Assembly: GCF_020084865.1 (NCBI RefSeq)
Contig: NZ_CP071953.1
Coordinates: 1,550,001 to 1,614,000 of the forward strand
From: Candidatus Kaistella beijingensis
GTDB lineage: Bacteria > Bacteroidota > Bacteroidia > Flavobacteriales > Weeksellaceae
Length of the DNA: 64,000 nt
Direction: 5' to 3'
Under the pieces are notes generated by a model. The model had not been told where the DNA came from. It searched no databases and was given only the letters and a program-made list of their open reading frames with translations. Positions 7,543-51,802 of the stretch are shown piece after piece (positions within the stretch are counted from its first letter, which is position 1; each line of letters starts with the position of its first letter). Both the position numbers and the translations under genes were made by a program.

Positions 7543-7631
7543 AGAGAAAAGGACAAAGAATAAAGACATCCAAAGATTCGTTAAAAAATGTTTCTTTTGT
7601 CTTTTATCTTTATTCTTTCTTCTTTTTTCTT
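7543..7631. repeat. Inverted pair of period-7 arrays upstream of kdgA
   Basis: From 7590 to 7631 the plus strand is six consecutive 7-mers, each of form NNNTCTT with the first three bases changing from copy to copy (GTT, TTG, TTA, TAT, TCT, TTT). From 7543 to 7570 four 7-mers of the opposite sense follow (AGAGAAA, AGGACAA, AGAATAA, AGACATC). Read on the transcribed strand, the constant part is AAGA. The arms could fold into a loose hairpin. It occupies the gap between yhcH and kdgA. Confidence 0.75.
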
Positions 7632-7636
7632 GTGTG

Positions 7637-8086
7637 CTATATTTTAACTTTAAAAACTAATTTTTTAATTTCGCCATCACCAATCATCGGTGCGTGAACA
7701 TCTTCGGGAAAAAAGATCGCAAACTGACCGTCTTTCAGCTTGAAATAGGTGTCGGGTTCGTCACTGAAAAACTGAACATCTTTTTCCTCGTTAAAATTTC
7801 CGTTGAAATTTTTGCAGTCTTTACGGGATTTCCACTCAATTCGTTCGTTTCCTTTTACACAGATCTGAATGTCGATATTTCTATTGTGACACTCGAATTT
7901 CTGCAGACTTTCTTCTCTTGTTTTCCCGAATTTATTGCTCACAATCATTTTGAGTCCGTCTTCCAATTCGAAACTTCCGTCCTGAAAATTTTCAAGATTT
8001 TTTCCTTCCAAAAACTTGAATGCATTTTTGAAAAGAGGATGCAAACAATAGTATTGATAGGCGTTTTCTAAAGAATCAATAATCAT
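7637..8086 (-). CDS. YhcH/YjgK/YiaL-family protein (DUF386)
   Basis: A 149-aa cupin-like protein of the YhcH family, whose members are linked to sialic acid, galacturonate or alginate use; the biochemical role is mostly unknown. Family marks are HNRNIDIQICVKGNERIEW in the middle and QFAIFFPEDVHAPMI near the C-terminus; the conserved His and Glu residues in these blocks bind a metal in solved members. Position between the KDG kinases and kdgA suggests a helper step such as epimerisation or anomer conversion of a uronate intermediate. Full-length. Confidence 0.85.
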   Translation of the reverse strand: MIIDSLENAYQYYCLHPLFKNAFKFLEGKNLENFQDGSFELEDGLKMIVSNKFGKTREESLQKFECHNRNIDIQICVKGNERIEWKSRKDCKNFNGNFNEEKDVQFFSDEPDTYFKLKDGQFAIFFPEDVHAPMIGDGEIKKLVFKVKI

Positions 8087-8265
8087 TTTTGTTGTTTTTA
8101 ACGCACAGTGCGCAAAGATTTTTTTTAAAATTTTTTGCTTTTAAGTTCACAAAGATTCATCAAAGATGAATTGCAAAGACCGCAAAATTCTCTCTCGCTG
8201 ATTTCGCAGATGACGCAGATTATTATTTTTCAATCCGCGAAAATCTTCGCAATATGTGTGAAACT
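8087..8265. repeat. Repeat-rich gap between kdgK and yhcH
   Basis: No gene. The 179 bp hold several copies of a CGCAAAGAT-like word (variants CACAAAGAT, ATCAAAGAT, TGCAAAGAC). They also hold a period-9 stretch at 8200-8226 (GATTTCGCA, GATGACGCA, GATTATTAT), then inverse-sense copies around 8234-8250. The gap is large for an operon joint, so an internal start or processing site is possible, though I see no convincing TAnnTTTG box. Confidence 0.55.
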
Positions 8266-9306
8266 TTATCTCGCCACTCTTCCTGAAGCGTCGCCTCCCA
8301 TTAATTTCATTACTTCATCAACAGTAACCAGGTTTGCATCACCTTTAATCGTGTGTTTCAAGCAAGATGCTGCCACTGCGAAATCAAGGGCTTTTTGGTC
8401 GTCATCACCCCAAGTTAAAAGTCCGTAAATCAATCCGCCCATAAAACTGTCGCCACCTCCAACTCTATCTACGATATCGGTTATTTGGTATTGACGGGTT
8501 TCGAACATTTTTTCGCCATCCCATAAAACTCCGGCCCAAGTGTTGTGCGAAGCGGAAATAGAACCTCTCAAAGTGGTGATTACTTTTTTCGCACGAGGGA
8601 ATTTTTTCATCATTTGCTGACAAACGGAAAGGAATGCCTCTGCTTTCACATCGTGTCCGTGTTTGGTAACGTCCAAACCTTCAGGTTTGATTCCGAAATG
8701 CATTTCCGCATCTTCTTCGTTTCCTAAAATCACGTCGCAATAAGAAGTCAATTCCGTCATAATTTTTTCTCTGTCACCGCCGTATTTCCACAATTTTGCG
8801 CGGTAATTTAAATCTGTAGAGATTTTTAAACCTAATTTGCTGGCTGCTTTTACCGCTTCCAGACAAACATCTGCGGAACTTTGAGAAATTGCAGGGGTAA
8901 TTCCTGTCCAATGGAACCATTCCGCTCCTTGGAAAACTTCTTCCCAATTCACCATTCCCGGTTGTATTTCTGCCATTGCAGAATGCGCTCTGTCGTAAAC
9001 TACCTTACTTCCGCGGGAAACAGCGCCCGTTTCAAGGAAATAAATTCCCAATCTGTCGCCGCCCCAAACAATTTTGTCAACGCCAACTCCTCTTTTTCTC
9101 ATCTCCATCATTGCGCACTGACCGATGTCGTTTTTCGGCAAACGCGTTACAAAATCTACGGGAATTCCGTAATTCGCCAAGGAAACGGCCACGTTGGATT
9201 CGCCGCCACCGTAAACCACATCAAAATTATCTGCCTGTGAAAATCTTAAAAAACCGCTTGGTGCAAGTCTCAACATAATTTCTCCAAAAGTTACTACTCT
9301 GCTCAT
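8266..9306 (-). CDS. kdgK: 2-keto-3-deoxygluconate kinase (PfkB family), copy 1
   Basis: This 346-aa ribokinase/PfkB sugar kinase phosphorylates KDG to KDPG using ATP. The start MSRVVTFGEIMLRLAP and the YGGGESNVAVSLANYG block are typical of KdgK. The C-terminal PfkB signature reads DIVDRVGGGDSFMGGLIYG (about residue 285), with the catalytic Asp retained. A near paralog lies immediately upstream, with the same head and the same unusual C-terminal end GRVAR. One copy may prefer a different keto-deoxy sugar acid; the sequence does not tell which. Confidence 0.9.
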   Translation of the reverse strand: MSRVVTFGEIMLRLAPSGFLRFSQADNFDVVYGGGESNVAVSLANYGIPVDFVTRLPKNDIGQCAMMEMRKRGVGVDKIVWGGDRLGIYFLETGAVSRGSKVVYDRAHSAMAEIQPGMVNWEEVFQGAEWFHWTGITPAISQSSADVCLEAVKAASKLGLKISTDLNYRAKLWKYGGDREKIMTELTSYCDVILGNEEDAEMHFGIKPEGLDVTKHGHDVKAEAFLSVCQQMMKKFPRAKKVITTLRGSISASHNTWAGVLWDGEKMFETRQYQITDIVDRVGGGDSFMGGLIYGLLTWGDDDQKALDFAVAASCLKHTIKGDANLVTVDEVMKLMGGDASGRVAR

Positions 9307-9337
9307 TTGTTTACTATATTTTTTAATGTTTTAAATT

Positions 9338-10342
9338 TTATCTCGCCACTCTTCCGCCTCCAATTCCATTAACCAAAGCGTTGATTTCTTCGACTTTTGC
9401 TAAATTGATGTCGCCTGAAATGGAATGTTTCAAACAAGTCGCCGCAGCCGCAAATTCCAATGCATTTTGGTGATTTTCAGGCCACTCCATCAAACCATAA
9501 ATAATTCCTGCCATAAATGCGTCGCCTGCTCCAATCCTGTCGATAATGTGCGAAACGTGATATTGTTTCGATTTCAAAAACTCCGTTCCATTGTAAAAAA
9601 CTGCGCTTACACTGTTCGAGGAAGCATTTGCATTCAGTCTTTTGGTGGAAACAATATTTTTAATTTTAGGAAAAGTTTGCATCCATTTTGAAAAAATCAT
9701 TTCCGCCGTATCATTTTCCTCGGTTTTAATTCCTAAAACACTTTCTGATTCTGCAGTTCCTCCTAATAAAAGGTCACAATACTGAACCAAATTCGGCATT
9801 ATTTCGTTGGCTCTTTTGCCGTAGTTCCAAAGCGTTGGTCTGTAATTCAAATCTACAGAAATCGTCAATCCTTTTTCTGAAGCGACTTTCAAACCTTGTT
9901 CGCAAATTTCTGCAAGTTCCAAAGAAAGCGATGGCGTAATTCCCGACCAATGAAACCAAGTGGCATTCGCAAAAATATTTTCCCAATCAATCATTCCCTT
10001 TTTTAGGGTTGAGAATGAGGAATCTTCCCTGTCGTAAACAACTTTTCCCGGTCTTTCGGAAGCGCCGTGTTCGAAATAATAGATTCCCAATCTTTTTCCC
10101 TGAACAAAAGCAAGCGGTTCAACTCCGAAAGCACGCAACATACTTAATGAAGATTCTCCCAAATCATTATTCGGAACTGCGGTGATGAATTTCACGGGAA
10201 TTCCAAATTTTGCGAGTGAGGCAGCAACATTGGCTTCGGCGCAACCATAATACAAGTCGAAAGATGCTGTTTGCGATAACCTTAAATGACTTGGTGGCGA
10301 TAACCGAAGTAAAATCTCTCCAAATGTTACGACTTTACTCAT
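9338..10342 (-). CDS. kdgK: 2-keto-3-deoxygluconate kinase (PfkB family), copy 2
   Basis: A 334-aa PfkB-family kinase. The N-terminal MSKVVTFGEILLRLSP, the YGCAEANVAASLAKFG block and the signature HIIDRIGAGDAFMAGIIYG show an intact active site with the usual GAGD. It is clearly related along its length to the downstream kinase (8266-9306) but well diverged, so the duplication is not recent. Its start codon follows the kdgF stop directly. Likely KDG kinase; a changed substrate range for one copy is possible. Confidence 0.88.
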   Translation of the reverse strand: MSKVVTFGEILLRLSPPSHLRLSQTASFDLYYGCAEANVAASLAKFGIPVKFITAVPNNDLGESSLSMLRAFGVEPLAFVQGKRLGIYYFEHGASERPGKVVYDREDSSFSTLKKGMIDWENIFANATWFHWSGITPSLSLELAEICEQGLKVASEKGLTISVDLNYRPTLWNYGKRANEIMPNLVQYCDLLLGGTAESESVLGIKTEENDTAEMIFSKWMQTFPKIKNIVSTKRLNANASSNSVSAVFYNGTEFLKSKQYHVSHIIDRIGAGDAFMAGIIYGLMEWPENHQNALEFAAAATCLKHSISGDINLAKVEEINALVNGIGGGRVAR

Positions 10343-10669
10343 TTATTTTTCTAAAAAATCTTCTCTTTTTGGGCTGAAACATTCTACCAAAACTCCTTCT
10401 TCCAAACAAACTACACCGTGCATTAATTGAGAGTTGATGAAGAATACATCTCCGCTTTTTAAAATCTTTTTCTCGTTTTCAATCTGCACTTCAAATTTTC
10501 CTTTGGCAATATATGCCGCTTGAGAATGAATGTGATGGTGCAAATAACCAATTCCACCTTCTTTGAATTTCACGATGGTTTGCATCAATGAATCATCAAA
10601 ACCAACAATCGCTCTTTCAAGATTTTCGTCGATTTTTTCCCATTGCATTTGGTTTTGTTCAAGAAACAT
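10343..10669 (-). CDS. kdgF: KdgF-like cupin, unsaturated uronate ring-opening
   Basis: A 108-aa single-domain cupin. KdgF converts 4,5-unsaturated galacturonate to the linear DKI that KduI uses. The cupin metal site is visible as YLHHHIHSQAAYIAKGKFEV (about residues 42-61), followed by GDVFFINSQLMHGV with the later His. Size and neighbours (kduI, kduD, two KDG kinases) fit KdgF well. Other small sugar-binding cupins are possible on sequence alone. It sits 12 bp after uxaC. Confidence 0.85.
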   Translation of the reverse strand: MFLEQNQMQWEKIDENLERAIVGFDDSLMQTIVKFKEGGIGYLHHHIHSQAAYIAKGKFEVQIENEKKILKSGDVFFINSQLMHGVVCLEEGVLVECFSPKREDFLEK

Positions 10670-10681
10670 CTTTAAATATTT

Positions 10682-12082
10682 TTAAAAATTAAAATATTCC
10701 TTCGCGTTGAAATAACTGATGTCGGAAACCATTTTCCCCACCAAATCCATGTCTTGTGGAATTTCGCCACGCTGCATTTCATCACCCAAAATATTACACA
10801 AAAGCCGTCTGAAATATTCGTGTCTTGGGAACGAAAGGAAACTTCTAGAATCCGTCAACATTCCGATGAAACAACTCAATAATCCCATATTTGAAAGGGC
10901 GTTCAACTGTTTCGTCATTCCGTCTTTTTGGTCAAGAAACCACCATCCGGAACCAAATTGCACTTTTCCTTTTACACTTCCGTCGTTAAAATTTCCAATC
11001 ATCGTGGCAAAAACTTCGTTATCTGCAGGATTTAAGTTGTAGATAATGGTTTTCGTCAATTTATCGTTGGCATCAAGTCTATTTAAAAATTTGGAAAGTT
11101 TCTCCGCTTGAGAAAAATCGCCGATAGAATCCCAACCTGTGTCGGGACCTAAAATTCGGTGCATTCTCGTATTGTTATTTCGCAACGCTCCCAAGTGGAA
11201 TTGCTGAACCCAACCTAATTTGTGGTAAGATTCTGCCAATAAAATCAAGACTGCACTTTGGAATTTCAGTGCTTCTTCTTTGGAAACAGGTTGTCCGCTT
11301 CTTCTTTTCTTAAAGATTTGTGCGATTTCGTTTTCGGTAAAATTCTCAAAATAAATTTGATCCAAACCGTGGTCAGACAGTCGGCAACCATTATGGTGAA
11401 AGAACTGAAGTCTTTTCGTCAAAACATCCTGTAAATCCTGATACGTATTGATTTCAGTTTCCGCAACATTTGCCAAAGTGTTCAGATAATCGTTGTAAGA
11501 TTCGTTTTCAATCAAAATCACTTTGTCGGGACGGAATGCGGTGCTCACTTTAATATGGAAATCACTCGACGCCAACTTTTTGTGGTATTCCAAATTATCG
11601 GTTGGATCTTCCGTGGTGCAAACCAATTCTGCATTCACTTTTTTCAAAAGATTTTGCGTGCTGTATTCAGCGGAATTAATTTTTGCGGATGCTTCGTCGT
11701 AGATTTTCTCTGCGGTTTTTTCATTAAGCAGTTCATCAATATCAAAATACCTTGCCAATTCAAGATGCGTCCAATGATAGAGCGGGTTTCTCAACGTGTA
11801 AGGAACGGTTTTTCCCCACTGAAGAAACTTGTCTTTATCGGAAGCGTTTCCTGTGATGAAATTTTCATTGATGCCTAAAGTCCGCATTGCACGCCATTTG
11901 TAATGGTCGCCTTTAATCCAAACATCGGTCAGGTTTTCGAAAATGTGATTTTCAGCAATCAACGAAGGTGAAAGGTGATTGTGATAATCGATAATCGGCT
12001 GATTTTTAGAATAGTTGTGGTATAACTCTTCTGCAAATTTGTTCTCTAAAAGAAAATTGTCGTGTATAAATTGACTTGCCAT
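10682..12082 (-). CDS. uxaC: Glucuronate/galacturonate isomerase
   Basis: UxaC isomerises D-galacturonate to tagaturonate and D-glucuronate to fructuronate in the cytoplasm. The 466-aa protein matches the family length (470 in E. coli). It begins with the conserved PIIDYHNHLSPSLIAENHIF block (about residues 29-48), whose HxH is part of the metal site in this amidohydrolase-fold family. The GLLSCFIGMLTDSRSFLSFPRHEYFRR region near residue 395 is split by the family's typical RSF and RHEYFRR words. It lies 12 bp after kduD. Confidence 0.95.
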   Translation of the reverse strand: MASQFIHDNFLLENKFAEELYHNYSKNQPIIDYHNHLSPSLIAENHIFENLTDVWIKGDHYKWRAMRTLGINENFITGNASDKDKFLQWGKTVPYTLRNPLYHWTHLELARYFDIDELLNEKTAEKIYDEASAKINSAEYSTQNLLKKVNAELVCTTEDPTDNLEYHKKLASSDFHIKVSTAFRPDKVILIENESYNDYLNTLANVAETEINTYQDLQDVLTKRLQFFHHNGCRLSDHGLDQIYFENFTENEIAQIFKKRRSGQPVSKEEALKFQSAVLILLAESYHKLGWVQQFHLGALRNNNTRMHRILGPDTGWDSIGDFSQAEKLSKFLNRLDANDKLTKTIIYNLNPADNEVFATMIGNFNDGSVKGKVQFGSGWWFLDQKDGMTKQLNALSNMGLLSCFIGMLTDSRSFLSFPRHEYFRRLLCNILGDEMQRGEIPQDMDLVGKMVSDISYFNAKEYFNF

Positions 12083-12094
12083 TCTTAAATTATA

Positions 12095-12880
12095 TTATTC
12101 TTCGTTTGAAGGTTTTCCGATGGTCGCGAGAATTCCGCCATCCACATAAATCACTTGTCCGTTCACGAAATCGCTCGCTTTTGATGCAAGGAAAACTGCG
12201 GCACCACCCAAATCTTCGGGATTTCCCCATCTTCCTGCAGGAGTTCTGCTGATGATGAATTCATTGAAAGGATTTCCGTCCACACGAATGGGTTCGGTTT
12301 GTGAAGTTGCGAAATATCCTGGTCCAATTCCATTGACTTGAATATTGAATTTTGCCCATTCTGTCGCCAAATTTTGGGTAAGCATTTTCAAACCACCTTT
12401 TGCGGCGGCATAGGCGGAAACACTGTTTCTTCCCAATTCGCTCATCATCGAACAGATGTTGATAATTTTTCCTTCTTTTCGTTCAATCATCTGTTTTGCA
12501 ACCAATTGAGACATAATAAAAGGTCCTACCAAATCCACATCAATCACTTTTCGGAAATCGGAAACAGGCATCGAAATCGCTAATTCTCGTTTGATAATTC
12601 CTGCATTATTCACCAAAATATGGATATCTCCTACTTCTTTGGTGATGAGTTCCACATATTTTGCCGCGTCATTTTCATTGGTCACATCGAAAAGATAACC
12701 TTTCGAATCATAACCTTTTGAGTGATAATACGAAAGTGCTTCTTCCATTTTTGAAGGCGTGGTTCCGGTGATGATGAGTTTTGCGCCTGCCTTTGCAAGT
12801 GCTTCCGCCATCGCCATCCCAAGACCGTGAGTTCCGCCGGTAATGAGTGCGTTTTTATTTTTTAAACTGAATAAATCCAT
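12095..12880 (-). CDS. kduD: KduD: 2-deoxy-D-gluconate 3-dehydrogenase (SDR)
   Basis: A 261-aa short-chain dehydrogenase that reduces 2,5-diketo-3-deoxygluconate (DKII) to KDG. The NAD-binding glycine motif is TGGTHGLGMAMAEALAKAG (about residues 15-33). NNAG lies near 92, and the active-site Tyr-Lys pair is in SAYAAAKGG near 155. The start overlaps the kduI stop by one base (TAATG), so the two are translationally linked. A generic gluconate SDR is the alternative, but adjacency to kduI is decisive. Confidence 0.92.
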   Translation of the reverse strand: MDLFSLKNKNALITGGTHGLGMAMAEALAKAGAKLIITGTTPSKMEEALSYYHSKGYDSKGYLFDVTNENDAAKYVELITKEVGDIHILVNNAGIIKRELAISMPVSDFRKVIDVDLVGPFIMSQLVAKQMIERKEGKIINICSMMSELGRNSVSAYAAAKGGLKMLTQNLATEWAKFNIQVNGIGPGYFATSQTEPIRVDGNPFNEFIISRTPAGRWGNPEDLGGAAVFLASKASDFVNGQVIYVDGGILATIGKPSNEE

Positions 12881-13722
12881 TATTTTAATTCATTTGGTGG
12901 ACAAATATCCATATCGCCATAATCAAGATTTTCTCCTGCCATTCCCCAAATAAAAGAATAGTTGGAAGTTCCCGCTCCACTGTGAATCGACCATTCGGGA
13001 GAAAGAACCGCCTGATTATTTTGCATAAAAATATGTCGCGTTTCGTGCGTTTGTCCCATAAAATGTGAAATCGTCTGTCCTTCCGTCAAATCGAAATAGA
13101 AATATGCTTCCATTCTTCTAGAGTGCGTGTGTGCAGGCATCGTGTTCCAAATATTTCCCGGTAAAAGTTCGGTCAAACCCATTTGAAGTTGGTTGGTTTG
13201 AACCAATTCGTTTACGATCAGTTTGTTGAGAACCCTTTTGTTGCAGTTCTCTTGGTCTCCTAAATTGATGACCACCGCTTCTTCTTTGCCAATTTTTTTG
13301 GTTGGATATGCTTCGTGAGCAGGTGCAGAATTCAGATAAAATAAAGCAGGATTTTCAGCATCTTTACTTACGAAAAGGATCTCCTTCTTTCCTTTTCCAA
13401 CGTAAAGCGCTTCTTTTTTGTCGAGCTCAAAAACTTCTCCATCTACGTAAACTTCACCTTTTCCGCCCACGTTTACAATTCCGAGTTCTCTTCTATCGAG
13501 GAAATTTTCTGATTTTAAATAATCAATGGTTTCCAAATTGAGTCTTTCATTTACAGGCATTGCACCACCGACAATGAATCGGTCGTACATCGAATAAACC
13601 AGGTTGATTTCATTCTCCGTAAAAAGATTTTCAATTAAGAACTCGTTTCTTAATTTTTCCGTGTCATAAGATTTCACATCAGCGGGATTCGCCGCGTACC
13701 TGAAACTGTAATTCGTCTTCAT
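12880..13722 (-). CDS. kduI: 5-keto-4-deoxyuronate isomerase
   Basis: KduI turns DKI into DKII in breakdown of unsaturated uronates released from pectin. The 280-aa cupin-fold enzyme shows NTMPAHTHSRRMEAYFYFDL (about residues 187-206), holding the His and Glu metal ligands, and LSPEWSIHSGAGTSNYSFIW near 245. I start it at the Met of MKTNYSFRYAANPADVKSYD (13722). A longer frame to 13749 would run through the operator and the -7 box and is therefore rejected. First gene of the 11-gene operon, with an operator placed at its transcription start. Confidence 0.94.
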   Translation of the reverse strand: MKTNYSFRYAANPADVKSYDTEKLRNEFLIENLFTENEINLVYSMYDRFIVGGAMPVNERLNLETIDYLKSENFLDRRELGIVNVGGKGEVYVDGEVFELDKKEALYVGKGKKEILFVSKDAENPALFYLNSAPAHEAYPTKKIGKEEAVVINLGDQENCNKRVLNKLIVNELVQTNQLQMGLTELLPGNIWNTMPAHTHSRRMEAYFYFDLTEGQTISHFMGQTHETRHIFMQNNQAVLSPEWSIHSGAGTSNYSFIWGMAGENLDYGDMDICPPNELK

Positions 13723-13732
13723 AATAAAGATT

Positions 13733-13746
13733 TGTAATCGATTACA
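13733..13746. promoter_or_regulatory. LacI-family operator on the kduI promoter
   Basis: TGTAATCGATTACA, identical in all 14 bases to the site at 27-40. It starts directly after the -7 box on the minus strand, so it covers the expected transcription start. That is a classic repressor position. The regulator is probably the LacI protein at 196-1212. Confidence 0.85.
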
Positions 13747-13775
13747 CAAAGATATATAATATTTTCAAATTGCAA
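13747..13775 (-). promoter_or_regulatory. Promoter of the kduI-uxaA operon
   Basis: On the minus strand TTG (13773-13775) is followed after 18 bp by TATCTTTG (13747-13754), a good Bacteroidota -33/-7 pair. The -7 box is flanked by the LacI operator. The leader would be about 20 nt. Confidence 0.75.
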
Positions 13776-24317: not shown

Positions 24318-25424
24318 TCACCCATTTACAATAATTTCTGCAGCGTGATCACTTGCTCCTTTTCCGCCTAATTTTTCACGAAGTGCTTCATAGTTTTTAA
24401 GCATTTTTGTGCGGTTTTCTCCTTCAAAAATTTTAGTTAATTCTTTTACCAAATTATTGGTGTTCAGTTCATTTTGAATAAGTTCCGTCACAATTTCTTC
24501 ATCCATAATTAAGTTGACTAACGAAATGTATTTGATGTTTTTCACCACTCGTTTTCCAATTTCATAAGAAATTTTGGAACTTCTGTAGCAAACCACTTCT
24601 GGGATATTTAAAAGTGCTGTTTCCAAGGTTGCCGTTCCCGAAGTCACCAAAGCCGCTTTTGAACTCCTCAATAAATCGTACGTTTTATTGGAAACGAAAT
24701 GTACATTTTCATCCACAAATTTTTGGTAGAAACTTTTGGGTAAACTTGGCGCACCCGCAATTACAAATTGATGTTTCGGGAAATAAGGACGAACCGAAAG
24801 CATGATTTGTAACATCTTTTCAACTTCTTGCTCCCTCGAACCCGGAAGAAGCGCAATAATTTCTTTTTCGTTTAGATTATTTTCTGATTTGAATTTTTGT
24901 AAGTCCAATGTTGGCAAATCAGAAATCGCATCAAGCAAAGGATGTCCCACGAAATGGGCTTCAACTTGATGTTTTTTATAGAAATCCTTCTCGAAGGGAA
25001 GAATTACGAGCATCTCATCGACGAACTTTTTGATTTTCTCGACGCGGCCTTCTTTCCAGGCCCAAAGCTGTGGTGAAATGTAATAGACGATTTTGATTCC
25101 AAGACTTTTTGCAAATTCCGCAATCCTTAAATTAAAGCCGGGATAATCTACCAAAACCAAAACATCGGGTTTATATTTCTGAATATCTTCTTTACAGAAT
25201 TTAATGTTTTTAAGTATGGTATTCAGATTTTTCGCAACTTCTAAAAAACCCATGAATGCTAAATCTTTGTAATGTTTCACGGGAGAAATTCCGGCAACTT
25301 TCTGCATTAAATCTCCGCCCCAAAATCTAAACTCTGCGTTGGAATCTTTTTTCAGAATCGACTTCATTAGATTGGAGGCATGCAAATCTCCTGATGCTTC
25401 TCCTGCGATGATGTAGTATTTCAA
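24318..25424 (-). CDS. lpxB: Lipid-A-disaccharide synthase
   Basis: LpxB joins UDP-2,3-diacylglucosamine and lipid X to make the lipid A disaccharide at the inner membrane. The 368-aa protein (E. coli 382) starts with the signature YYIAGEASGDLHASNLMKSI. It has the family blocks FWGGDLMQKVAG, LVDYPGFNLRIAEFAK (about 92), YYISPQLWAWKEGRV (about 115), ALLPGSREQEVEKML (about 190) and SGTATLETALL (about 262). The start codon is preceded by a TCAAATC tandem array only 5 nt away. Confidence 0.95.
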   Translation of the reverse strand: MKYYIIAGEASGDLHASNLMKSILKKDSNAEFRFWGGDLMQKVAGISPVKHYKDLAFMGFLEVAKNLNTILKNIKFCKEDIQKYKPDVLVLVDYPGFNLRIAEFAKSLGIKIVYYISPQLWAWKEGRVEKIKKFVDEMLVILPFEKDFYKKHQVEAHFVGHPLLDAISDLPTLDLQKFKSENNLNEKEIIALLPGSREQEVEKMLQIMLSVRPYFPKHQFVIAGAPSLPKSFYQKFVDENVHFVSNKTYDLLRSSKAALVTSGTATLETALLNIPEVVCYRSSKISYEIGKRVVKNIKYISLVNLIMDEEIVTELIQNELNTNNLVKELTKIFEGENRTKMLKNYEALREKLGGKGASDHAAEIIVNG

Positions 25425-25428
25425 TGTA

Positions 25429-25455
25429 GATTTGAGATTTGAGATTTGAGATTTT
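25429..25455 (-). repeat. Period-7 array in the lpxB leader
   Basis: Three full 7-mers GATTTGA on the plus strand (TCAAATC on the transcribed strand) plus a partial fourth. The array ends 5 nt before the lpxB start codon, where a ribosome-binding site would normally lie. Confidence 0.8.
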
Positions 25456-28656: not shown

Positions 28657-28696
28657 ACTTCAAATGATTTCAAACAATTTCAAACGACTTCAAACA
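28657..28696 (+). repeat. Four-copy period-10 array in the aspS leader
   Basis: Four consecutive 10-mers of form AYTTCAAAYR: ACTTCAAATG, ATTTCAAACA, ATTTCAAACG, ACTTCAAACA. They end 8 nt before the aspS start codon. Two more copies of the same 10-mer occur downstream of rplQ, at about 41660-41680. Confidence 0.8.
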
Positions 28697-28704: not shown

Positions 28705-30459
28705 ATGTTCAGAACGCATACCAACGGCGAATTATCGCTGAAAAATCTTGATGAAAAAGTAACTCTTTCCGGTTGGGTACAAACCATCCGCGACAAAGGT
28801 TTTATGATTTGGATTGATTTACGCGACCGTTATGGAATTACGCAGTTGGTTTTTGATGCAGACAGAACTTCCGCAGAAATTTTAGAAAAAGCCAAAAAAT
28901 TGGGACGCGAATTTGTCATTCAAGTGGAAGGAAAAGTGATTGAAAGAAGTTCTAAAAATCCAAAAATTCCAACCGGAGAAATTGAAATTTTAGTTGAAAA
29001 CTTAAACATTTTAAACGAAGCACAACTTCCACCTTTCACCATTGAAGATGAAACCGATGGTGGCGAAGAACTTCGTATGAAATACAGATATTTGGACATC
29101 CGCAGAAATCCAGTGAAAGACAAACTGATTTTCCGTCACAAAATGGCGCAGAAAGTAAGAAATTACCTTTCCGATGCAGGATTTATCGAAGTCGAAACGC
29201 CAGTTCTCATCAAATCCACTCCGGAAGGTGCGAGAGATTTTGTGGTTCCGAGCAGAATGAATGCAGGACAGTTTTATGCACTTCCGCAATCACCACAAAC
29301 TTTCAAACAATTGTTGATGGTTGGTGGAATGGACCGATATTTTCAAATCGTAAAATGTTTCCGTGATGAAGATTTAAGAGCAGACCGACAACCGGAATTT
29401 ACCCAAATCGATTGTGAAATGGCGTTTGTAGAGCAGGAAGATGTGTTGGAAACTTTTGAAGGATTAACCGCAAGTTTGCTGAAAGACATCACTGGAAAAG
29501 ATTTTGGAAAATTCCCAAGAATGACTTTCGAGGAAGCGATGAAAACATACGGAAACGACAAGCCGGACATCCGTTTTGGAATGAAATTCGTGGAAGTTAA
29601 TGATTTGGTAAAAGGGAAAGATTTTAAAATTTTTGATGACGCAGAATTGGTAGTTGGAATCAACGTTGAAGGTTGTGCAGATTATACTAGAAAACAAATT
29701 GACGAACTCATAGATTGGGTAAAACGCCCCCAAATTGGTGCTTCAGGAATGGTTTGGATTAAATTCCAAAATGATGGCGTTTTAACTTCCTCCGTAAATA
29801 AATTTTATTCTGAAGATGACTTAAAGAAAATCGCAGAAAAATTCAATGCAAAAGCAGGAGATTTAATTTTCTTGATGAGCGGAGATGCCAATAAAGTGAG
29901 AACCCAACTTTCGGCGCTCCGAATGGAACTTGGAAATCGTCTTGGGTTAAGAAAAGGCGACGAATTCGCTCCACTTTGGGTGATAGATTTCCCACTTTTG
30001 GAATGGGATGAAGAATCAGGAAGATATCATGCAATGCACCATCCTTTTACTTCGCCAAAACCGGAAGATGTTCATTTATTGGAAAGCGAGCCGGGAAAAG
30101 CAAGAGCCAACGCCTACGATATGGTTCTTAACGGAAACGAAATTGGCGGCGGTTCTGTAAGAATTTTTGATAGAGATTTGCAGAGCAAAATGTTCGATTT
30201 GTTAGGCTTTTCCAAAGAAGAAGCAGAAGCACAATTCGGATTTCTGATGAACGCCTTCAAATATGGAGCTCCTCCGCACGCAGGTTTGGCGTTTGGTTTT
30301 GACCGTTTGGTTGCGATTTTGGATGGAAACGAAGTCATTAGAGATTATATCGCTTTCCCGAAAAATAATTCCGGACGTGATGTGATGATTGATGCACCAA
30401 GTCCGATTGCGGATTTGCAGTTGGAAGAACTTTCGTTGAAAGTGGAAACGAAAGAATAA
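28705..30459 (+). CDS. aspS: Aspartyl-tRNA synthetase
   Basis: A 584-aa class II synthetase that charges tRNA-Asp. The N-terminal OB-fold anticodon domain starts at [19 protein letters not shown]. Motif 2 is [20 protein letters not shown] (about residues 215-234). The GAD insertion domain lies about 300-420. Motif 3 is [15 protein letters not shown] near 530. The size matches the bacterial type. I reject the longer frame from 28597 because it includes the -7 box and the 10-mer array, and because family proteins begin at the Met used here. Confidence 0.96.
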
Positions 30460-32947: not shown

Positions 32948-33312
32948 GCGTTCCTACGGAACGCATTTACAAACTTTAAACTTTATTTTTACACAGATTA
33001 CATTCCTACGGAATGCTTCTTTCTGCTTTATCTTTTTTCTACAGAGATTGCATTCCTATGGAATGCTCCGTTTATCGTTAATTTTTTCCTACGGAGGTTG
33101 CATTCCTACGGGAATGCCTTCAATCGATCTTCAGATATTTCTAAACAGATTACATTCCTGCGGAATGAACTTTTCTTCTATATTTTTATTCTAAATTTAC
33201 CACTAATTAGTATCATTTTCTTTTAATTTTAAGTGCGTTGGTGGATTCCGTAGGAATCTTATCTGTGTAGGAATAACATTGGATTGCGATTTAGGGCACT
33301 CCGTAGGAGTGC
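32948..33312. repeat. REP-like palindrome array downstream of the transposase (7 units)
   Basis: Seven imperfect copies of a hairpin around TCCTACGGA: 32948-32964, 33001-33015, 33050-33066, 33100-33117 and 33153-33167 in one direction, 33244-33258 and 33296-33312 in the other. Stems vary but stay paired: GCGTTCCTACGGAACGC, GCATTCCTATGGAATGC, GCACTCCTACGGAGTGC (reverse). Each is preceded by a GAT-containing word (GATA, GATTA, GATTG). The compensating changes point to selection on the hairpin. No gene otherwise in this 404-bp gap. Confidence 0.85.
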
Positions 33313-36450: not shown

Positions 36451-36689
36451 TTTATGTTGGGTGTTTGATGTTGCGTGATGGATGTTTTCAAAAATTTGAA
36501 AATATATTTTGTTATCAAAAATATTATAAAAAGTATGACGGCAATCTCAATGATTAAAAAAATTGAAGTGAAAATTTCAATACAAAGTTGTTTATTTTCA
36601 AGAGCTTTAATTATAATATAAAACACAATAACATTTATAAAAATAAATACTATGAAAGAAATAAAACCCGTTTTCTTTGAAAATTTCAT
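36447..36689 (-). CDS. Small two-helix membrane protein, unknown
   Basis: An 80-aa hydrophobic protein (start at MKFSKKTGFISFIVF; a longer frame to 36713 adds 8 residues). Two membrane helices are predicted, separated by a short charged loop. The last 12 residues are encoded by a period-7 repeat array, and the stop codon overlaps the paaZ start by four bases. No known family. It could be a real small gene or an open frame kept by chance ahead of paaZ. Confidence 0.45.
   Translation of the reverse strand: MKFSKKTGFISFIVFIFINVIVFYIIIKALENKQLCIEIFTSIFLIIEIAVILFIIFLITKYIFKFLKTSITQHQTPNIK
36455..36489 (-). repeat. Five-copy period-7 array just before paaZ
   Basis: Five consecutive 7-mers on the plus strand starting TG: TGTTGGG, TGTTTGA, TGTTGCG, TGATGGA, TGTTTTC. 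It ends 5 nt upstream of the paaZ start codon and also forms the 3' end of the small upstream frame. Confidence 0.75.
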
Positions 36690-36700
36690 TTTATAAATTT

Positions 36701-36749
36701 TGGCTAAAGCCAATTGATTTTTTGATTTTTTGAAAATGGGCTAAAGCCC
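36701..36749. repeat. Pair of GGCTAAAGCC palindromes
   Basis: TGGCTAAAGCCA (36701-36712) and GGGCTAAAGCCC (36738-36749), 25 bp apart, the second followed by GTTCCTATTGATG. A two-hairpin layout like this is common for REP-type intergenic elements. It lies between the small membrane ORF and a lipoprotein gene, and could also act as a weak transcription stop. Confidence 0.6.
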
Positions 36750-36766
36750 GTTCCTATTGATGCTAT

Positions 36767-43917: not shown

Positions 43918-43926
43918 AAAATTTTA

Positions 43927-43960
43927 GATTTAAGATTCAAGATTCAAGATTCAAGATTTT
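43927..43960 (-). repeat. Period-7 array in the rpsK-rpsD gap
   Basis: Plus-strand units GATTTAA, then GATTCAA three times, then GATTTTT. It ends 10 nt before the rpsD start codon. Confidence 0.8.
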
Positions 43961-43993
43961 TATGTTGAATATTAAATTTTGAATTTTGAATTA

Positions 43994-44785: not shown

Positions 44786-44902
44786 TTAGCCTTGTCTTTG
44801 TTTAAATTTTGGATTCTTCTTGTTGATCACAAACAGAACACCTTTACGGCGAACGATTTTGCAATCAGCACTTCTTTTTTTGATAGATGCTCTAACTTTC
44901 AT
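44786..44902 (-). CDS. rpmJ: 50S ribosomal protein bL36
   Basis: A 38-aa protein, [20 protein letters not shown] followed by a [18 protein letters not shown] end. Only one Cys is present (residue 14), so this is the zinc-free form. Found by reading the gap between infA and rpsM. Confidence 0.95.
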
Positions 44903-46593: not shown

Positions 46594-46601
46594 GAGTAAA
46601 A

Positions 46602-47048
46602 TTATAGAGTAATTGCTTTACCTCCCGCTTTAGAGATTGCCTCTTCAGCAGATTTTGTGAATTTGTTCGCAGAGATTGAAACACCTGATTTCAATTCACC
46701 TCTACCCATAATTTTCACGATTTCAGATTTTTTAGCCAATCCGTTTTCTACCAAAACATCTTTGGTGACGTCTGTGATATTTTTCGCATCCGCTAAAGCC
46801 TGAATAGTATCAAGATTAATTGCTCTGTACTCTTTTCTGTTTACATTGTTGAAACCGAATTTAGGCAATCTTCTCTGTAAAGGCATCTGTCCACCTTCGA
46901 AACCGATTTTCTGTGAATAACCAGCTCTGGATTTCTGACCTTTGTGACCTTTTGTTGAAGTACCGCCATATCCGCTTCCTTGTCCTCTACCAATTCTTTT
47001 CTGGCTGTGAGTGGAACCTGCTGCCGGTTTTATGTTATTTAAATTCAT
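46602..47048 (-). CDS. rplO: 50S ribosomal protein uL15
   Basis: A 148-aa protein of the large subunit core. The Gly-rich N-terminus KRIGRGQGSGYGGTSTKGHK and GFEGGQMPLQRRLPKFGF are canonical. 8 bp before secY; its leader has an inverted pair of 6-mer arrays. Confidence 0.96.
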   Translation of the reverse strand: MNLNNIKPAAGSTHSQKRIGRGQGSGYGGTSTKGHKGQKSRAGYSQKIGFEGGQMPLQRRLPKFGFNNVNRKEYRAINLDTIQALADAKNITDVTKDVLVENGLAKKSEIVKIMGRGELKSGVSISANKFTKSAEEAISKAGGKAITL

Positions 47049-47062
47049 TATTTTAAAATTAA

Positions 47063-47112
47063 AGGTTAAGGTTAAGGCAGAGGTTGAGCATTAACTCAAC
47101 CTAATCCTTATC
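47063..47112 (-). repeat. Inverted pair of period-6 arrays in the rpmD-rplO gap
   Basis: On the plus strand GGTTAA, GGTTAA, GGCAGA, GGTTGA, then a short spacer, then TCAACC, TAATCC, TTATCC, which are the inverse sense (GGTTGA, GGATTA, GGATAA). The inner arms GTTGAG/CTCAAC pair perfectly, so the RNA could form an imperfect hairpin 15 nt before the rplO start. Confidence 0.7.
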
Positions 47113-47119
47113 CTAAAAA

Positions 47120-47296
47120 TTATTTTTGAACTTCTACTAAATGACTAACCGCAGCTACCATTCCAAGGATTGCAGGAGTTGCCTCATGTTCTACAACTTG
47201 GTGAAGTTTTTTCAATCCTAATGCTTCAAGCGTTCTCTTTTGGGTTTTTGTTCTACCAATAGCGCTTCTTACTTGTTTTACCTGAATTTTTGCCAT
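47120..47296 (-). CDS. rpmD: 50S ribosomal protein uL30
   Basis: A 58-aa protein, starting MAKIQVKQVRSAIGRTKTQK with LEALGLKKLHQVVEHEATPA and ending LVEVQK. Read directly from the gap between rpsE and rplO, where uL30 is expected. Confidence 0.95.
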   Translation of the reverse strand: MAKIQVKQVRSAIGRTKTQKRTLEALGLKKLHQVVEHEATPAILGMVAAVSHLVEVQK

Positions 47297-47306
47297 TGTT
47301 TTAATA

Positions 47307-47828
47307 TTAACCGTTAAACACTTTTTCTAATGAAACACCTCTCAATTTTGCAATTTCTTCAGGTCTTCTGATATCCAACAATGCTTTGAAAGTAGCTTTC
47401 ACCACGTTGTGCGGGTTTGAAGATCCTTTAGATTTTGAAAGAATATCTTTAATTCCTGCTGCTTCTACCACCATACGCACTGTTCCACCCGCAATTACAC
47501 CGGTACCGTGAGTTGCAGGTCTCAAGAAGATATCTGCGCCACCGTATCTAGCGGAAGTTTGGTGAGGAATGGTGTGGTTTACTACAGGAACTTTTACCAA
47601 ATTTTTCTTTGCATCTTCTACTGCTTTTGCAATAGCGGAAGCAACTTCTTTTGATTTTCCTAAACCATAACCTACAGTTCCGGCTTCGTCTCCTACAACC
47701 ACGATTGCAGAAAATCCGAATGCACGTCCACCTTTGGTTACTTTGGTTACTCTGTTTACAGCTACGAGACGATCTTTAAGTTCTAATCCGCCCGGTTTTA
47801 CTTTTTCTATATTATCTAGTCCTAACAT
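47307..47828 (-). CDS. rpsE: 30S ribosomal protein uS5
   Basis: A 173-aa protein involved in decoding accuracy and mRNA unwinding. Blocks: [40 protein letters not shown], and [20 protein letters not shown]. 10 bp before rpmD. Confidence 0.96.
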
Positions 47829-47847
47829 ATTTTCCGAAATTTAATGA

Positions 47848-48195
47848 TTAGAATTTTAGTCCGCCTTCTCTCGCTCCATCAGCAAGAGCTTTCACTCTAC
47901 CGTGGTAAACGAAACCGTTTCTGTCGAACACAATATTTTCAATACCTGCAGCTTTAGCTTTTTCAGCGATTGCTTTACCTACTTCTGCAGAGATTTCTAC
48001 TTTTGTACCTTTAGCGTTCATAGCTCTTGAAGAAGCTGAAGCTAAGGTTTTACCTTCTTTATCGTCGATCAATTGCGCGTAAATTTCCTTGTTACTTTTG
48101 TAAACGGATAATCTTGGCAATTCAGCAGAGCCGGAGATTTTTCCACGAACTCTTCTTTTGATTCTGTCTCTTTTTTGTACTTTATTCAGTGCCAT
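47848..48195 (-). CDS. rplR: 50S ribosomal protein uL18
   Basis: A 115-aa 5S rRNA-binding protein: [20 protein letters not shown] and [20 protein letters not shown]. Full length. Confidence 0.96.
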
Positions 48196-48209
48196 TTTCT
48201 TAAATTTTA

Positions 48210-48755
48210 TTAAGCAGATTTACCAGCTTTACGTCTAACAATTTCTCCTACGAAACGAACTCCTTTTCCTTTGTAAGGTTCAGGTTTTCTGAATGATCTG
48301 ATTTTAGCGGCAACCATTCCCAAAAGTTGCTTGTCATAAGACGTCAACGTGATGATTGGGTTTTTACCTTTTTCAGAAAGTGTTTCTACGGTCACTTCTT
48401 TTGGAAGATCCAATACGATACCGTGAGAGAATCCCAAAGCCAGTTCCAGTTTGTTACCGGTATTTGATGCTCTGTATCCTACCCCAACAAGTTCAAGTTG
48501 CTTAGTCCAACCTGTAGCTGTACCTTGAACCATGTTATTGATTAACGCTCTGTAAAGACCGTGTAATGCTTTGTGCTGTTTTGATTCTGAAGCTCTATCT
48601 AGAGTAAGAACTCCGTCTTCTTGCTTTAGAGTGATTCCCTCATTAAGTTGCTGTGTAAGTTCTCCTTTCGGACCTTTCACAGTTACCAAACCATCCTTTT
48701 CAGTAATGGTAACTCCTGCTGGAATTTCTATAATTGCTTTACCAATTCTTGACAT
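48210..48755 (-). CDS. rplF: 50S ribosomal protein uL6
   Basis: A 181-aa protein near the factor-binding site. [20 protein letters not shown] at the start and [20 protein letters not shown] at the end are typical. Confidence 0.96.
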
Positions 48756-48772
48756 TTTCCTTGGATTAAAAA

Positions 48773-49171
48773 TTAATAAACATAGCAGATTACTTCTCCA
48801 CCAACTTTTTCTTGTCTGGCTTTCTTATCAGTCATTACTCCTTTAGAAGTTGAGATGATAGCCACTCCCAAACCGTTTAGTACTCTTGGAAGTTCTTCTG
48901 AACCTTTGTACTGTCTCAAACCTGGTCTTGAAGCTCTCTGAATGCTCTTGATTGCTGGTTTGTTGGTTTGTTTGTCATACTTTAAAGCGATTTTGATATT
49001 TCCTTGCACAGCGTTGTCCTCGAACTTATAGTTCAAGATATAACCCTGGTCAAACAAAATTTTCGTAATCTCCTTTTTGATTTTCGATGCAGGAATTTCC
49101 ACCACTTTGTGGCCTGCGCTTTGTGCGTTCCTTACTCTGGTCAGGAAATCTGAAATTGGATCTGTTACCAT
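48773..49171 (-). CDS. rpsH: 30S ribosomal protein uS8
   Basis: A 132-aa 16S rRNA-binding protein: [20 protein letters not shown] at the start, [20 protein letters not shown] near the end. In E. coli S8 represses the spc operon; no matching leader is seen here. The gap before it holds a two-armed period-7 array. Confidence 0.96.
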
Positions 49172-49208
49172 TTTTCTGTTTTAAATTATTGGTTTATGAT
49201 AGTTAGTT

Positions 49209-49296
49209 TTGATTGAGATTCAAGAACCTAGACACAAGATTCAAGACTTACATCCAGGCTCTTGCTTCTTGGCTCTTGATTCTAACAATCAACTTT
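49209..49296. repeat. Inverted pair of period-7 arrays in the rpsN-rpsH gap
   Basis: Plus strand: GATTCAA, GAACCTA, GACACAA, GATTCAA, GACTTAC follow one another at exact 7-bp steps (about 49216-49250). Then the opposite strand shows GAATCAA, GAGCCAA, GAAGCAA, GAGCCTG at the same step (about 49257-49284). The common form is GAnnnAA on both strands, pointing inward, so the arms can pair loosely. Confidence 0.75.
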
Positions 49297-49319
49297 ACTA
49301 TCTCGATTGTTCTAAATTG

Positions 49320-49589
49320 TTACCAACTTGCTTTTTTCACTCCCGGGATCAAACCTGCGTTTGCCATTTCACGGAAAGTTACTCTAGAAATACCGAAGGT
49401 TCTCATGTAACCTCTTGGTCTTCCTGTTAATTTACATCTGTTGTGTAATCTTACTGGTGAAGCGTCTTTCGGCAATTTTTGTAATGCTTCGTAATCTCCG
49501 GCTTCTTTCAAAGCTTTTCTTTTCTCGGCATATTTTGCTACTGTAGCTTCTCTTTTGCGCTCACGCGCTTTCATTGATTCTTTAGCCAT
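49320..49589 (-). CDS. rpsN: 30S ribosomal protein uS14
   Basis: An 89-aa protein of the long, zinc-free form: [20 protein letters not shown], then [20 protein letters not shown] and the C-terminal VKKASW. Only one Cys, so no zinc finger. 3 bp after rplE. Confidence 0.96.
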
Positions 49590-49592
49590 CTT

Positions 49593-50144
49593 TTAGTTCT
49601 TTTTGAATGGTAAACCGAAGTGAGTTAATAATGCTTTTGCTTCTTTGTCTGTCTTCGCAGAAGTTACGAAAGTGATGTCCATCCCTTGGATTTTTTTCAC
49701 TTTGTCGATTACGATTTCAGGGAAGATGATTTGCTCGGTAATCCCTAAGTTGTAATTTCCTCTTCCGTCGAAACCATCAGCTTTGATACCGTTGAAATCT
49801 CTGATTCGCGGTAAAGCTGAAGAAGTTAATCTGTCTAAAAACTCATACATTTGGTTTGCTCTTAGAGTCACTCTTGCTCCTACAGGCATTCCTTTTCTTA
49901 GTTTGAACGCTGCCTCGTCTTTTTTAGAGAGTGTTCCAACTGCTTTTTGGCCGGTAATTGCTGTAAGTTCTTCTACTGCATAGTCAACAATTTTCTTGTC
50001 AGCTGTTGCAGCTCCCAAACCTTGTGATACAACGATTTTCTCTAATTTAGGAACCTGCATTACAGATTTGTACCCAAATTCTTCCATCATTGCAGGAACA
50101 ATTTTCTCTTTATATGCTTTTTTTGGTCTTGCTACGTATTCCAT
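49593..50144 (-). CDS. rplE: 50S ribosomal protein uL5
   Basis: A 183-aa 5S rRNA-binding protein of the central protuberance: [20 protein letters not shown], then [20 protein letters not shown] and [11 protein letters not shown]. 2 bp after rplX. Confidence 0.96.
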
Positions 50145-50146
50145 AA

Positions 50147-50473
50147 TTAAATTTCCTTACCGGTTGTTTTAGCAATTCTTACTTTTTTATCTCCGTCCAC
50201 TTTGTAACCCACTTTGGTTGCTTTTCCGTTTGCATCAAGCAATGCTACGTTTGAAATATGGATGGATGCTTCTTTCTCTACAATTCCGCCTTGAGGATTT
50301 CCTGCAGATGGTTTGGTGTGTTTTTTCACTATGTTCAAACCTGCTACGATTACTCTTGCGTCTTTGCCTTCTTTACGAATCACTTCAATAACTTCACCTT
50401 TTTTACCTTTGATTTCTTTTCTTCCGGTAGTGATGATTACGTTATCTCCTCTTTTGATTTTTAACTTTGTCAT
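50147..50473 (-). CDS. rplX: 50S ribosomal protein uL24
   Basis: A 108-aa assembly-initiating protein with the KOW motif [20 protein letters not shown] followed by KGEVIEVI, and [19 protein letters not shown]. Full length. Confidence 0.96.
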
Positions 50474-50492
50474 TTTCTTGTAAATTTTAAAA

Positions 50493-50861
50493 TTAAAGTA
50501 CTTCAGGAGCTAATGAAATGACTTTCATATATTCTTTATCTCTCAGTTCACGAGCAACCGGTCCGAAAACACGGGTTCCTCTCATTTCGCCTGCAGCGTT
50601 CAAAAGAACACAAGCGTTGTCGTCGAACTTAATGTATGAACCATCTTTTCTACGAACTGCTTTTTTAGTTCTTACTACTACTGCTTTAGAAACGGTACCT
50701 TTTTTTGCGTTTCCCTGTGGTGTAGAATCTTTGATAGTAACTACGATTTTATCACCAACTGAAGCATATCTTCTTCTAGTTCCACCTAGAACTCTGATTA
50801 CAAGTACTTCTTTTGCACCTGTGTTATCAGCAACTTTTAATCTTGATTCTGTTTGTAACAT
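50493..50861 (-). CDS. rplN: 50S ribosomal protein uL14
   Basis: A 122-aa protein at the subunit interface: [20 protein letters not shown], then [20 protein letters not shown] and [15 protein letters not shown]. Its start codon shares one base with the rpsQ stop region. Confidence 0.96.
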
Positions 50862-51115
50862 TACTTAGCTTTTTCAATGATTCTTACTAATCTCCATCTC
50901 TTACTTTTGCTCAAAGGTCTTGTTTCAGTGATTAATACTGTATCGCCTTCGTTGCACTCGTTGTTCTCGTCGTGAGCGGTATATTTTTTCGTTTTCAAAA
51001 CGAATTTACCGTACATCGGGTGCTTCATTCTCATCGTTTCACTTACAACAATGGTTTTCTCCATCTTATTGCTAGAAACGATTCCGATTCTTTCTTTTCT
51101 TAAATTTCTATCCAT
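50861..51115 (-). CDS. rpsQ: 30S ribosomal protein uS17
   Basis: An 84-aa OB-fold 16S rRNA-binding protein: [20 protein letters not shown] and [20 protein letters not shown]. Overlaps rplN by one base. Confidence 0.96.
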
Positions 51116-51125
51116 GATGAAATCC

Positions 51126-51314
51126 TTATTGTTGTTTAAGTGTTAATTCAGTTTCTAATCTTGCGATTGTTTTTCTCAAATCTCTGATTTGGATTGGGTT
51201 TTCAATCGGGCTGATTCTGTGGGCCAATTTCAATTTGGTGAAATCTGCTTTTGCCTCAGCTAATTTGTTTTGGATGTCTCCTGCGCTTAGATTTTTGATG
51301 TCAGCTTTCTTCAT
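51126..51314 (-). CDS. rpmC: 50S ribosomal protein uL29
   Basis: A 62-aa helical protein near the tunnel exit: [20 protein letters not shown], ending [12 protein letters not shown] use the Met at 51314; an in-frame Met at 51341 would overlap rplP and adds residues not found in the family. Confidence 0.95.
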
Positions 51315-51324
51315 TTCTTTAAAA

Positions 51325-51750
51325 TTATTGAGGTTGAACAAAATCGTTAGCGACTACAAATTTGGTAACTACCGGTAATTTTTGTGCGGCAAGTCTAAGT
51401 GCTTCTTTCGCTACTTCGTAAGGAACACCTCCTACTTCGAACATAATTTTACCAGGCTTTACTACAGCTACCCAATATTCCACGGCACCTTTACCTTTAC
51501 CCATACGTACTTCCGCAGGTTTTTTGGTAATTGGCTTATCCGGGAAGATTTTGATCCATAGCTGACCTTCTCTTTTCATATATCTTGTAGCGGCGATACG
51601 CGCAGCTTCAATTTGTCTTGCAGTGATCCAAGCTCCTTCAGTTGCTTTGATACCGAAAGTTCCGTAAGCGAGTTGATTACCTCTTTGAGCAATCCCCTTC
51701 ATCTTCATTTTGTGAACTTTACGGAATTTAGTTCTTCTTGGTTGTAACAT
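51325..51750 (-). CDS. rplP: 50S ribosomal protein uL16
   Basis: A 141-aa protein near the A site: [20 protein letters not shown] and [20 protein letters not shown], with the [20 protein letters not shown] loop. The leader carries a five-unit period-7 array. Confidence 0.96.
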
Positions 51751-51767
51751 GATTTTTCTAAATTTTA

Positions 51768-51802
51768 GATTTCAGATTTCAGATTTCAGATTTCAGATTT
51801 AA
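51768..51802 (-). repeat. Five-copy period-7 array in the rpsC-rplP gap
   Basis: GATTTCA four times in a row plus GATTTAA on the plus strand (TGAAATC on the transcribed strand), 18-52 nt before the rplP start. The gap between rpsC and rplP is 97 bp, unusually wide for this operon. Confidence 0.85.

Follow-up and report, generated by a model that had tools for sequence, protein, structure and literature searches.

The window analysed here is a stretch of 64,000 nucleotides (nt) from Candidatus Kaistella beijingensis (positions 1550001-1614000 of the single 2.816-Mb contig, NZ_CP071953.1), and the elements in question are short tandem arrays, mostly with a 7-nt step, that lie in its intergenic spacers. 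A search of ten genes of the window against NCBIfam confirmed a kdgA-like aldolase, YhcH, lpxB, paaZ, eno, rpsD, rpsH, rplP and aspS; the ribosomal protein S5 is 97% identical to that of Kaistella solincola and likewise to the S5 of a Chryseobacterium metagenome-assembled genome (MAG). No Rfam family matches anywhere in the window at gathering score.

An initial annotation of the window, made by a model from its letters, had proposed 7-bp arrays at eight loci and other steps at four more. Each array was scored at its own lag, and for comparison the spacer that contains it was dinucleotide-shuffled 1000 times. Of the eight 7-bp arrays, seven hold: at kdgA, lpxB, rpsD, rpmJ, rpsH and rplP none of the 1000 shuffles equalled the observed score and at paaZ 7 did, while the array before eno was equalled by 670 and is not significant. 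As individual sequences, the 6-bp array at rplO, the 9-bp array in the yhcH gap and the 10-bp array at aspS (0 of 1000 each), together with the 8-bp array at the hydratase (4 of 1000), are also beyond chance.

For the genome-wide view we sampled 58 evenly spaced 20-kb stretches which, with the window, cover 1.224 of 2.816 Mb (43% of the genome). Gene calls came from our own script, which misses small genes such as rpmJ and infA, and left an intergenic set of 797 regions (153.8 kb) and a coding set of 983 kb, 6.4 times larger. Arrays scoring at least 12 were counted by period and compared with the mean of 20 shuffles. Period 7 is represented by 49 intergenic arrays against 0.9 in shuffles, followed by period 14 (17 against 0.25), period 10 (11 against 0.6) and period 8 (9 against 0.6); the corresponding figures are 2 against 0.65 for period 6 and 1 against 0.9 for period 9. 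The whole coding set holds 4 period-7 arrays. The arrays are therefore real and genome-wide, with counts far above those of shuffled intergenic sequence, where a count no higher would have refuted the initial annotation; 7 is the dominant period, 8 and 10 are real minor classes, and the 6- and 9-bp steps, sound at their own loci, are not enriched as classes.

The same feature is found in related genomes. At ribosomal-cluster loci, period-7 arrays number 7 against 0.1 in two Kaistella-type loci (one of three was dropped because of runs of N) and 19 against 0.0 in 14 Chryseobacterium/Elizabethkingia loci. The signal is less clear in 62 other Flavobacteriaceae loci, where 14 are found against 0.9, mostly versions of one AT-rich sequence (11 of the 16 arrays printed). 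Among 36 genomes of the genus, 17 of the 22 spacers of the ribosomal-protein cluster are short (median length below 35 nt) and free of 7-nt arrays in every genome. The arrays are concentrated in five long spacers: those between rpsC and rplP (rpsC>rplP, 35 genomes), rpsN and rpsH (rpsN>rpsH, 18), rpmD and rplO (rpmD>rplO, 15), infA and rpmJ (infA>rpmJ, 5) and rpsK and rpsD (rpsK>rpsD, 27).

Position and polarity were examined in the larger set of 110 arrays of period 7 or 14 with a score of at least 10, in which, as in the period counts, two arrays in one spacer count as two. They comprise 90 arrays in co-directional spacers (102 kb), 15 in divergent spacers (30 kb) and 5 in convergent spacers (21.6 kb). 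The anticipated enrichment upstream of start codons is present, since 32 of the 90 co-directional arrays lie within 10 nt of a start compared with 14.3 expected. A similar excess, 26 of 90 against the same 14.3, lies within 10 nt of a stop.

The arrays at gene edges are also polar. When arrays within 20 nt of a gene end are read 5' to 3' outward from that end, 61 of 72 contain more G than C, 8 more C than G and 3 equal amounts, and the bias holds at starts (34 of 41) and at stops (27 of 31). Read in the same way, edge arrays contain ATG 119 times and CAT 5 times. For comparison, gene-end stretches of array-free spacers with more G and with more C number 316 and 151 at starts, and 193 and 189 at stops; arrays lying farther than 20 nt from the nearest gene end have no clear polarity (20 against 16). 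In the five convergent-spacer arrays, whose sequences were read by eye, the nearest gene end is a stop and the polarity rule is followed. Avoidance of start codons as the sole source of the polarity is ruled out by the stop-side arrays, including these five.

Because the polarity is the same at starts and stops, gene ends are marked symmetrically, in the manner of the two arms of a palindrome, and the polarity is not a property of leaders. The idea of arrays specific to leaders or ribosome binding is thus not supported: they also occur at stops, in convergent spacers and between putative tRNA genes. In this last context, heptad-type hairpins (L247-L252) lie between two putative tRNA genes, which we take to be tRNA-Ile and tRNA-Ala. 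A purine-first arrangement is likewise present in these hairpins, and the same allele is found at four places in one genome (G017).

The arrays are not copies of one word. Across 100 array regions, each counted once, the same unit is shared by 91 pairs, where random intergenic 7-mers would give 18.6 and permuted letters 14.4; the commonest unit occurs in only 7 of the 100, so no word dominates. No universal triplet, such as TCT, was found across the arrays. Words differ between species and arrangements are locus-specific. Three exact copies of AATCTTG are present in one of 61 genomes of the phylum, the one analysed here. Hairpins built from one word do reappear, over almost their whole length, at unrelated loci in several genomes, with about 72-81% identity. 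In one genome (G032) an ATCTGAA-type hairpin arm has 22 matches, far more than in most genomes of the genus, and words seem to be genome-specific.

Within an array, part of the unit had been described as constant and the rest as changing from copy to copy. In 68 arrays, variant letters indeed gather in a small number of columns: on average 3.72 columns are invariant, where 2.85 would be expected (z 11.1). Such few-column variation would be expected from mutation plus duplication and from selection alike. The split is sharpest in a ladder of constant hexamers with changing linkers, described below. The accompanying suggestion that plain slippage does not suffice finds its best support in this ladder and in the polarity.

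Three ribosomal-protein spacers have halves that change together, as the arms of a predicted hairpin would. In an arm-swap analysis of the 36 genus genomes, 5' halves were paired with the 3' halves of other distinct alleles (20000 permutations). Own halves fit better at rpsK>rpsD (z -5.0, 17 alleles), rpsN>rpsH (z -8.3, 16 alleles) and rpmD>rplO (z -4.6, 17 alleles), in each case with 0 of 20000 permutations as good. The alleles of rpmD>rplO do not align and gave no consensus structure, and the arm swap was used there instead. Genome-wide, 32 of the 110 arrays have an inverted partner that outscores all 10 control spacers, where about 10 are expected. In the predicted folds of several ribosomal spacers, mismatches every 7 nt separate short helices. 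We considered a general module made up of 5 paired bases and a 2-nt loop but rejected it, as it appears in single predicted hairpins only and internal loops lack overall 7-nt phasing. A hairpin as general hallmark of array spacers was likewise rejected, because folding energy and arm swap fail to separate these from other spacers of the own genome.

The rpsN>rpsH spacer is predicted to fold (z about -7 and -6.2 in two computations). Of the 10 pairs in its basal stem (GATAGT...ACTATC), 4 show changes on both sides; across the 36 genomes 11 of 360 cells are unpaired, 9 cells are G-U and 1 is A-C. The spacer, which has no match in Rfam, is a candidate ribosomal-protein leader RNA. It resembles known ribosomal-protein mRNA leaders in having a conserved, co-varying stem before a ribosomal-protein gene, and differs in that the hairpin tip is rewritten between near species.

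We then compared whole spacers in three pairs of near genomes (G027/G025, G026/G022 and G031/G017). They provide 236 orthologous spacers, each flanked on both sides by a match of 100 nt or more; 179 of these spacers are at least 40 nt long in one genome. Where the flanks are at least 96% identical, 6 of 14 array spacers fall below 0.70 identity and 8 are at or above 0.86, whereas none of the 43 array-free spacers falls below 0.70 (Fisher p 8e-5). The array spacers are thus either 0.86-1.00 or 0.15-0.68 identical. At rpsC>rplP, for example, the spacers of G027 (110 nt) and G025 (82 nt) differ completely, although the 90 nt on either side of them are identical. The opposite is seen at rpmD>rplO, where the window and G034 share a spacer identical at 71 of 71 positions between 100-nt flanks of 0.88 and 0.83 identity, with 27 identical nt before it and 14 after. 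Ordinary homologous exchange may account for spacer replacement; at this locus a tract of about 112 nt would suffice. Arrays are likely a fast-changing class of intergenic spacer.

The coordinates of the features in the window are collected in Table 1. The infA>rpmJ array lies about 19 nt from the rpmJ start at 44902. The 8-bp array at the hydratase is 263 nt from the paaZ start and is something different from the other arrays, because it is placed inside a dispersed 68-bp palindrome pair. At 36693-36761, the palindromes GGCTAAAGCC and GGGCTAAAGCCC flank the spacer with this 8-bp repeat; this stretch has many dispersed copies in the genome and the genus and is REP-like. A tandem repeat of about 50 bp in 2-3 copies (TTCCTACGGAA...) at 32951-33117 bears no relation to the 7-nt arrays.

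Table 1. Arrays and associated features of the window (positions counted from its first letter).
Feature	Position	Strand	Evidence
kdgA-side 7-nt array, AAGANNN x about 6, upstream arm	7593..7631	-	score 19.5, 0/1000 shuffles
TCTT-repeating stretch downstream of the kdgA array, candidate complementary arm	7544..7576	-	read from sequence alone
lpxB leader array AAATCTC, 3.9 copies, few nt before TTG start at 25424	25428..25454	-	0/1000 shuffles
aspS 10-nt ladder, TCAAA(T/C) x4, linkers GATT, AATT, GACT, 9 nt before ATG at 28705	28660..28695	+	0/1000 shuffles
paaZ leader array, CATCCAA-type, imperfect, lag 14	36451..36486	-	score 12, 7/1000 shuffles
rpsK>rpsD spacer, start-side arm, AATCTTG array	43921..43958	-	score 26, 0/1000 shuffles; arms co-vary over 17 distinct alleles
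rpsK>rpsD spacer, stop-side arm, AATTCAA array	43962..43992	-	array scoring, fold, arm co-variation
infA>rpmJ spacer array GCCGAAA	44922..44958	-	score 20, 0/1000 shuffles; halves without co-variation
rpmD>rplO spacer, 6-nt step in window, 7-nt arrays in 15/36 genus genomes	47049..47119	-	0/1000 shuffles
rpsN>rpsH spacer, co-varying basal stem bearing a hairpin tip with heptad arms (49205-49290)	49172..49319	-	fold, arm swap, pair changes
rpsC>rplP spacer array AAATCTG	51756..51800	-	score 30.5, 0/1000 shuffles; arrays here in 35/36 genus genomes

The 10-bp array before aspS belongs to a class apart from the 7-nt arrays, in which the hexamer TCAAAC recurs at 8-10-nt steps with differing linkers. 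TCAAAC forms the commonest hexamer ladder in the sample, with 9 exact cases against 3 for the next non-overlapping word. All 9 exact ladders have the same orientation as the downstream gene, and five of these lie 7-10 nt upstream of its start. Of 15 loose ladders, 13 end 5-15 nt upstream of a start; an overlapping ATCAAA ladder (L124) has no start after it. Of 15 TCAAAC ladders of the own genome with context, 8 lie within 12 nt of an open reading frame (ORF), 3 at 66-135 nt, and 4 have none within 200 nt. The ten ladder genes searched form no obvious regulon.

The pattern matches 37 times (26 sites) in the own genome and 50 times (27 sites) in G032, compared with 2 in each of G028 and G029 and 1 in each of G012, G014 and G016. 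Neither it nor its reversed control is found in the other 29 genomes of the genus, and one of 98 other genomes of the phylum has a match. Thirty aspS loci were fetched (6 genus genomes gave none, and one start was not found); among the 29 leaders read, the ladder is present in G000, G028 and G032. Compared pairwise among these three species, the ladders match at 70 of 72 hexamer positions and at 20 of 36 linker positions, though G000 and G032 alone share 10 of 12 linker positions. Copying of identical units does not produce such a pattern. The ladder is likely kept by selection, as repeated putative sites for a binding factor near the start codon.

Several known systems resemble parts of this picture. 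Short tandemly repeated repetitive sequences (STRR) of cyanobacteria are heptanucleotide units in intergenic DNA. Long simple sequence repeats (LSSR) have units of 5-11 nt (Mrazek 2007, as reported in PMC4679880). The Kaistella arrays share with both kinds the heptanucleotide unit and the intergenic location, with 7-nt tandem units far above chance, and differ in that their units are mostly imperfect with variable columns. We know of neither gene-edge polarity nor wholesale spacer differences in STRR or LSSR. REP/BIME elements are intergenic palindromes in many copies. The arrays are similarly intergenic, palindromic and multicopy, but they have many words and no shared palindromic consensus, and their arms are made of 7-nt steps. 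TRAP-type ladders consist of a short triplet repeated with short linkers. The TCAAAC class at aspS, in three species, likewise has a constant motif at a near-fixed step with free linkers before a start, whereas motif and step are others, and no protein is known for TCAAAC.

The initial annotation knew of no described equivalent. In this it was too broad, given that TAACTGA heptamer direct repeats, many of them before starts, have been described in Beggiatoaceae, cyanobacteria and five Bacteroidetes (MacGregor 2015, PMC4679880). For Kaistella and Chryseobacterium, no description of such arrays was found in titles or abstract openings of the open-licence literature. The likeness to TAACTGA extends to 7-nt tandem units in intergenic DNA, many directly before starts, in some Bacteroidetes; the Kaistella arrays are, however, as enriched at stops as at starts. 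One word dominates there among the TAACTGA repeats and related words are rare (PMC4679880), whereas the Kaistella arrays have many words, both gene edges, polarity and partly inverted arms. The heptad arrays are a variant of known heptanucleotide intergenic repeats, distinguished by the mixed words, the edge polarity, the partly co-varying arms and the wholesale spacer differences.

We tentatively favour, at somewhat less than even chance, the explanation that these are polar 7-nt edge arrays, partly the halves of inverted repeats, which likely arise by 7-nt duplication together with whole-spacer exchange and act as intergenic RNA hairpins. Slippage-like duplication in 7-nt steps would likely build the arrays, and spacers would likely be replaced whole, in one or few events, by gene conversion, template switching or very short recombination tracts. 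The arrays would then work as RNA hairpins between genes of one transcript. The constant part of the unit may often be paired and the variable part form an internal loop, as predicted folds of single hairpins suggest, though not as a general rule. Their likely job would be that of a foldable spacer holding stop and start close in the folded mRNA.

A number of observations weigh against this explanation. Five of the six replaced array spacers are in the ribosomal cluster; outside it, with flanks at least 93% identical, 1 of 5 array spacers is replaced and 2 of 92 array-free ones. Without the flank filter the figures are 8 of 18 and 18 of 161, and median identity is no different (p 0.43). The 0.70 identity cut was chosen after the values were known, and the 14 'array' spacers include one that holds a tRNA plus terminator. 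Arm co-variation is absent at rpsC>rplP (5 alleles, z -1.3) and infA>rpmJ (10 alleles, z -0.3), and array-free spacers of the own genome pass the arm swap too (z -12.6, 150 of 328). Predicted folding is no better in array spacers (mean z -1.57, n=59) than in the rest (mean z -1.94, n=328), and rplP spacers on average do not surpass shuffles (mean z -0.52). As many as 78 of the 110 arrays lack a clear inverted partner, and internal loops show no 7-nt phasing overall.

The lack of a folding advantage is also what would be seen if the arrays were neutral heptanucleotide repeats: replication slips in 7-nt steps, copies build up in weakly constrained operon spacers and decay by point mutation, and the constant/variable split follows when some columns mutate before further duplication. 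The avoidance of coding DNA fits such an origin, as does the higher density in co-directional than in divergent or convergent spacers. Units of 7 nt, moreover, form the commonest class in many repeat-rich prokaryotes, and slippage of the polymerase has been suggested (Mrazek 2007, reported in PMC4679880). Local slippage is nevertheless not expected to produce the outward polarity at stops, the re-use of words, the arm co-variation at three spacers or the two separate ranges of spacer identity, and we consider purely neutral repeats rather unlikely.

If the arrays were instead repeated binding sites, placed before starts, for a regulator of translation, as has been suggested for the TAACTGA repeats (PMC4679880), the excess within 10 nt of starts would be explained, and the TCAAAC ladder, with its sense orientation and its ends close to starts, fits well. 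The 7-nt arrays, however, are equally enriched after stops, are present in convergent spacers and between putative tRNA genes, and have no single word or triplet in common; even some TCAAAC ladders lie far from any ORF. We therefore regard this explanation as very unlikely for the arrays. Slightly more room is left for a bolder scheme, itself improbable, in which lineage-specific ladder codes (with a step of 7 nt in the arms of hairpins and of 8 or 10 nt in TCAAAC ladders) would be read by putative trans-acting factors and stop-to-start spacers actively swapped as cassettes with the flanks untouched. Least probable in our view are small hairpin elements, either mobile or copied: palindromes of 65-80 nt, their arms built of heptads, would spread REP-like between loci and overwrite one another. 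The near full-length one-word hairpins at several unrelated loci and species point in that direction, as do the filled (76-95 nt) and short (18-19 nt) states of rpsK>rpsD. Their similarity, however, lies mainly in the heptads and is no higher than two independent one-word arrays would give, and no target duplication is seen between the short and long states.

The DNA between co-transcribed genes is usually regarded as featureless. In this case it contains ordered, polar sequence in which the step is kept while the words change, both in ribosomal-protein operons and elsewhere. With the near pairs G027/G025, G026/G022 and G031/G017 and the aspS ladder, the prevalence and neutrality of bacterial 7-nt repeats become directly testable.

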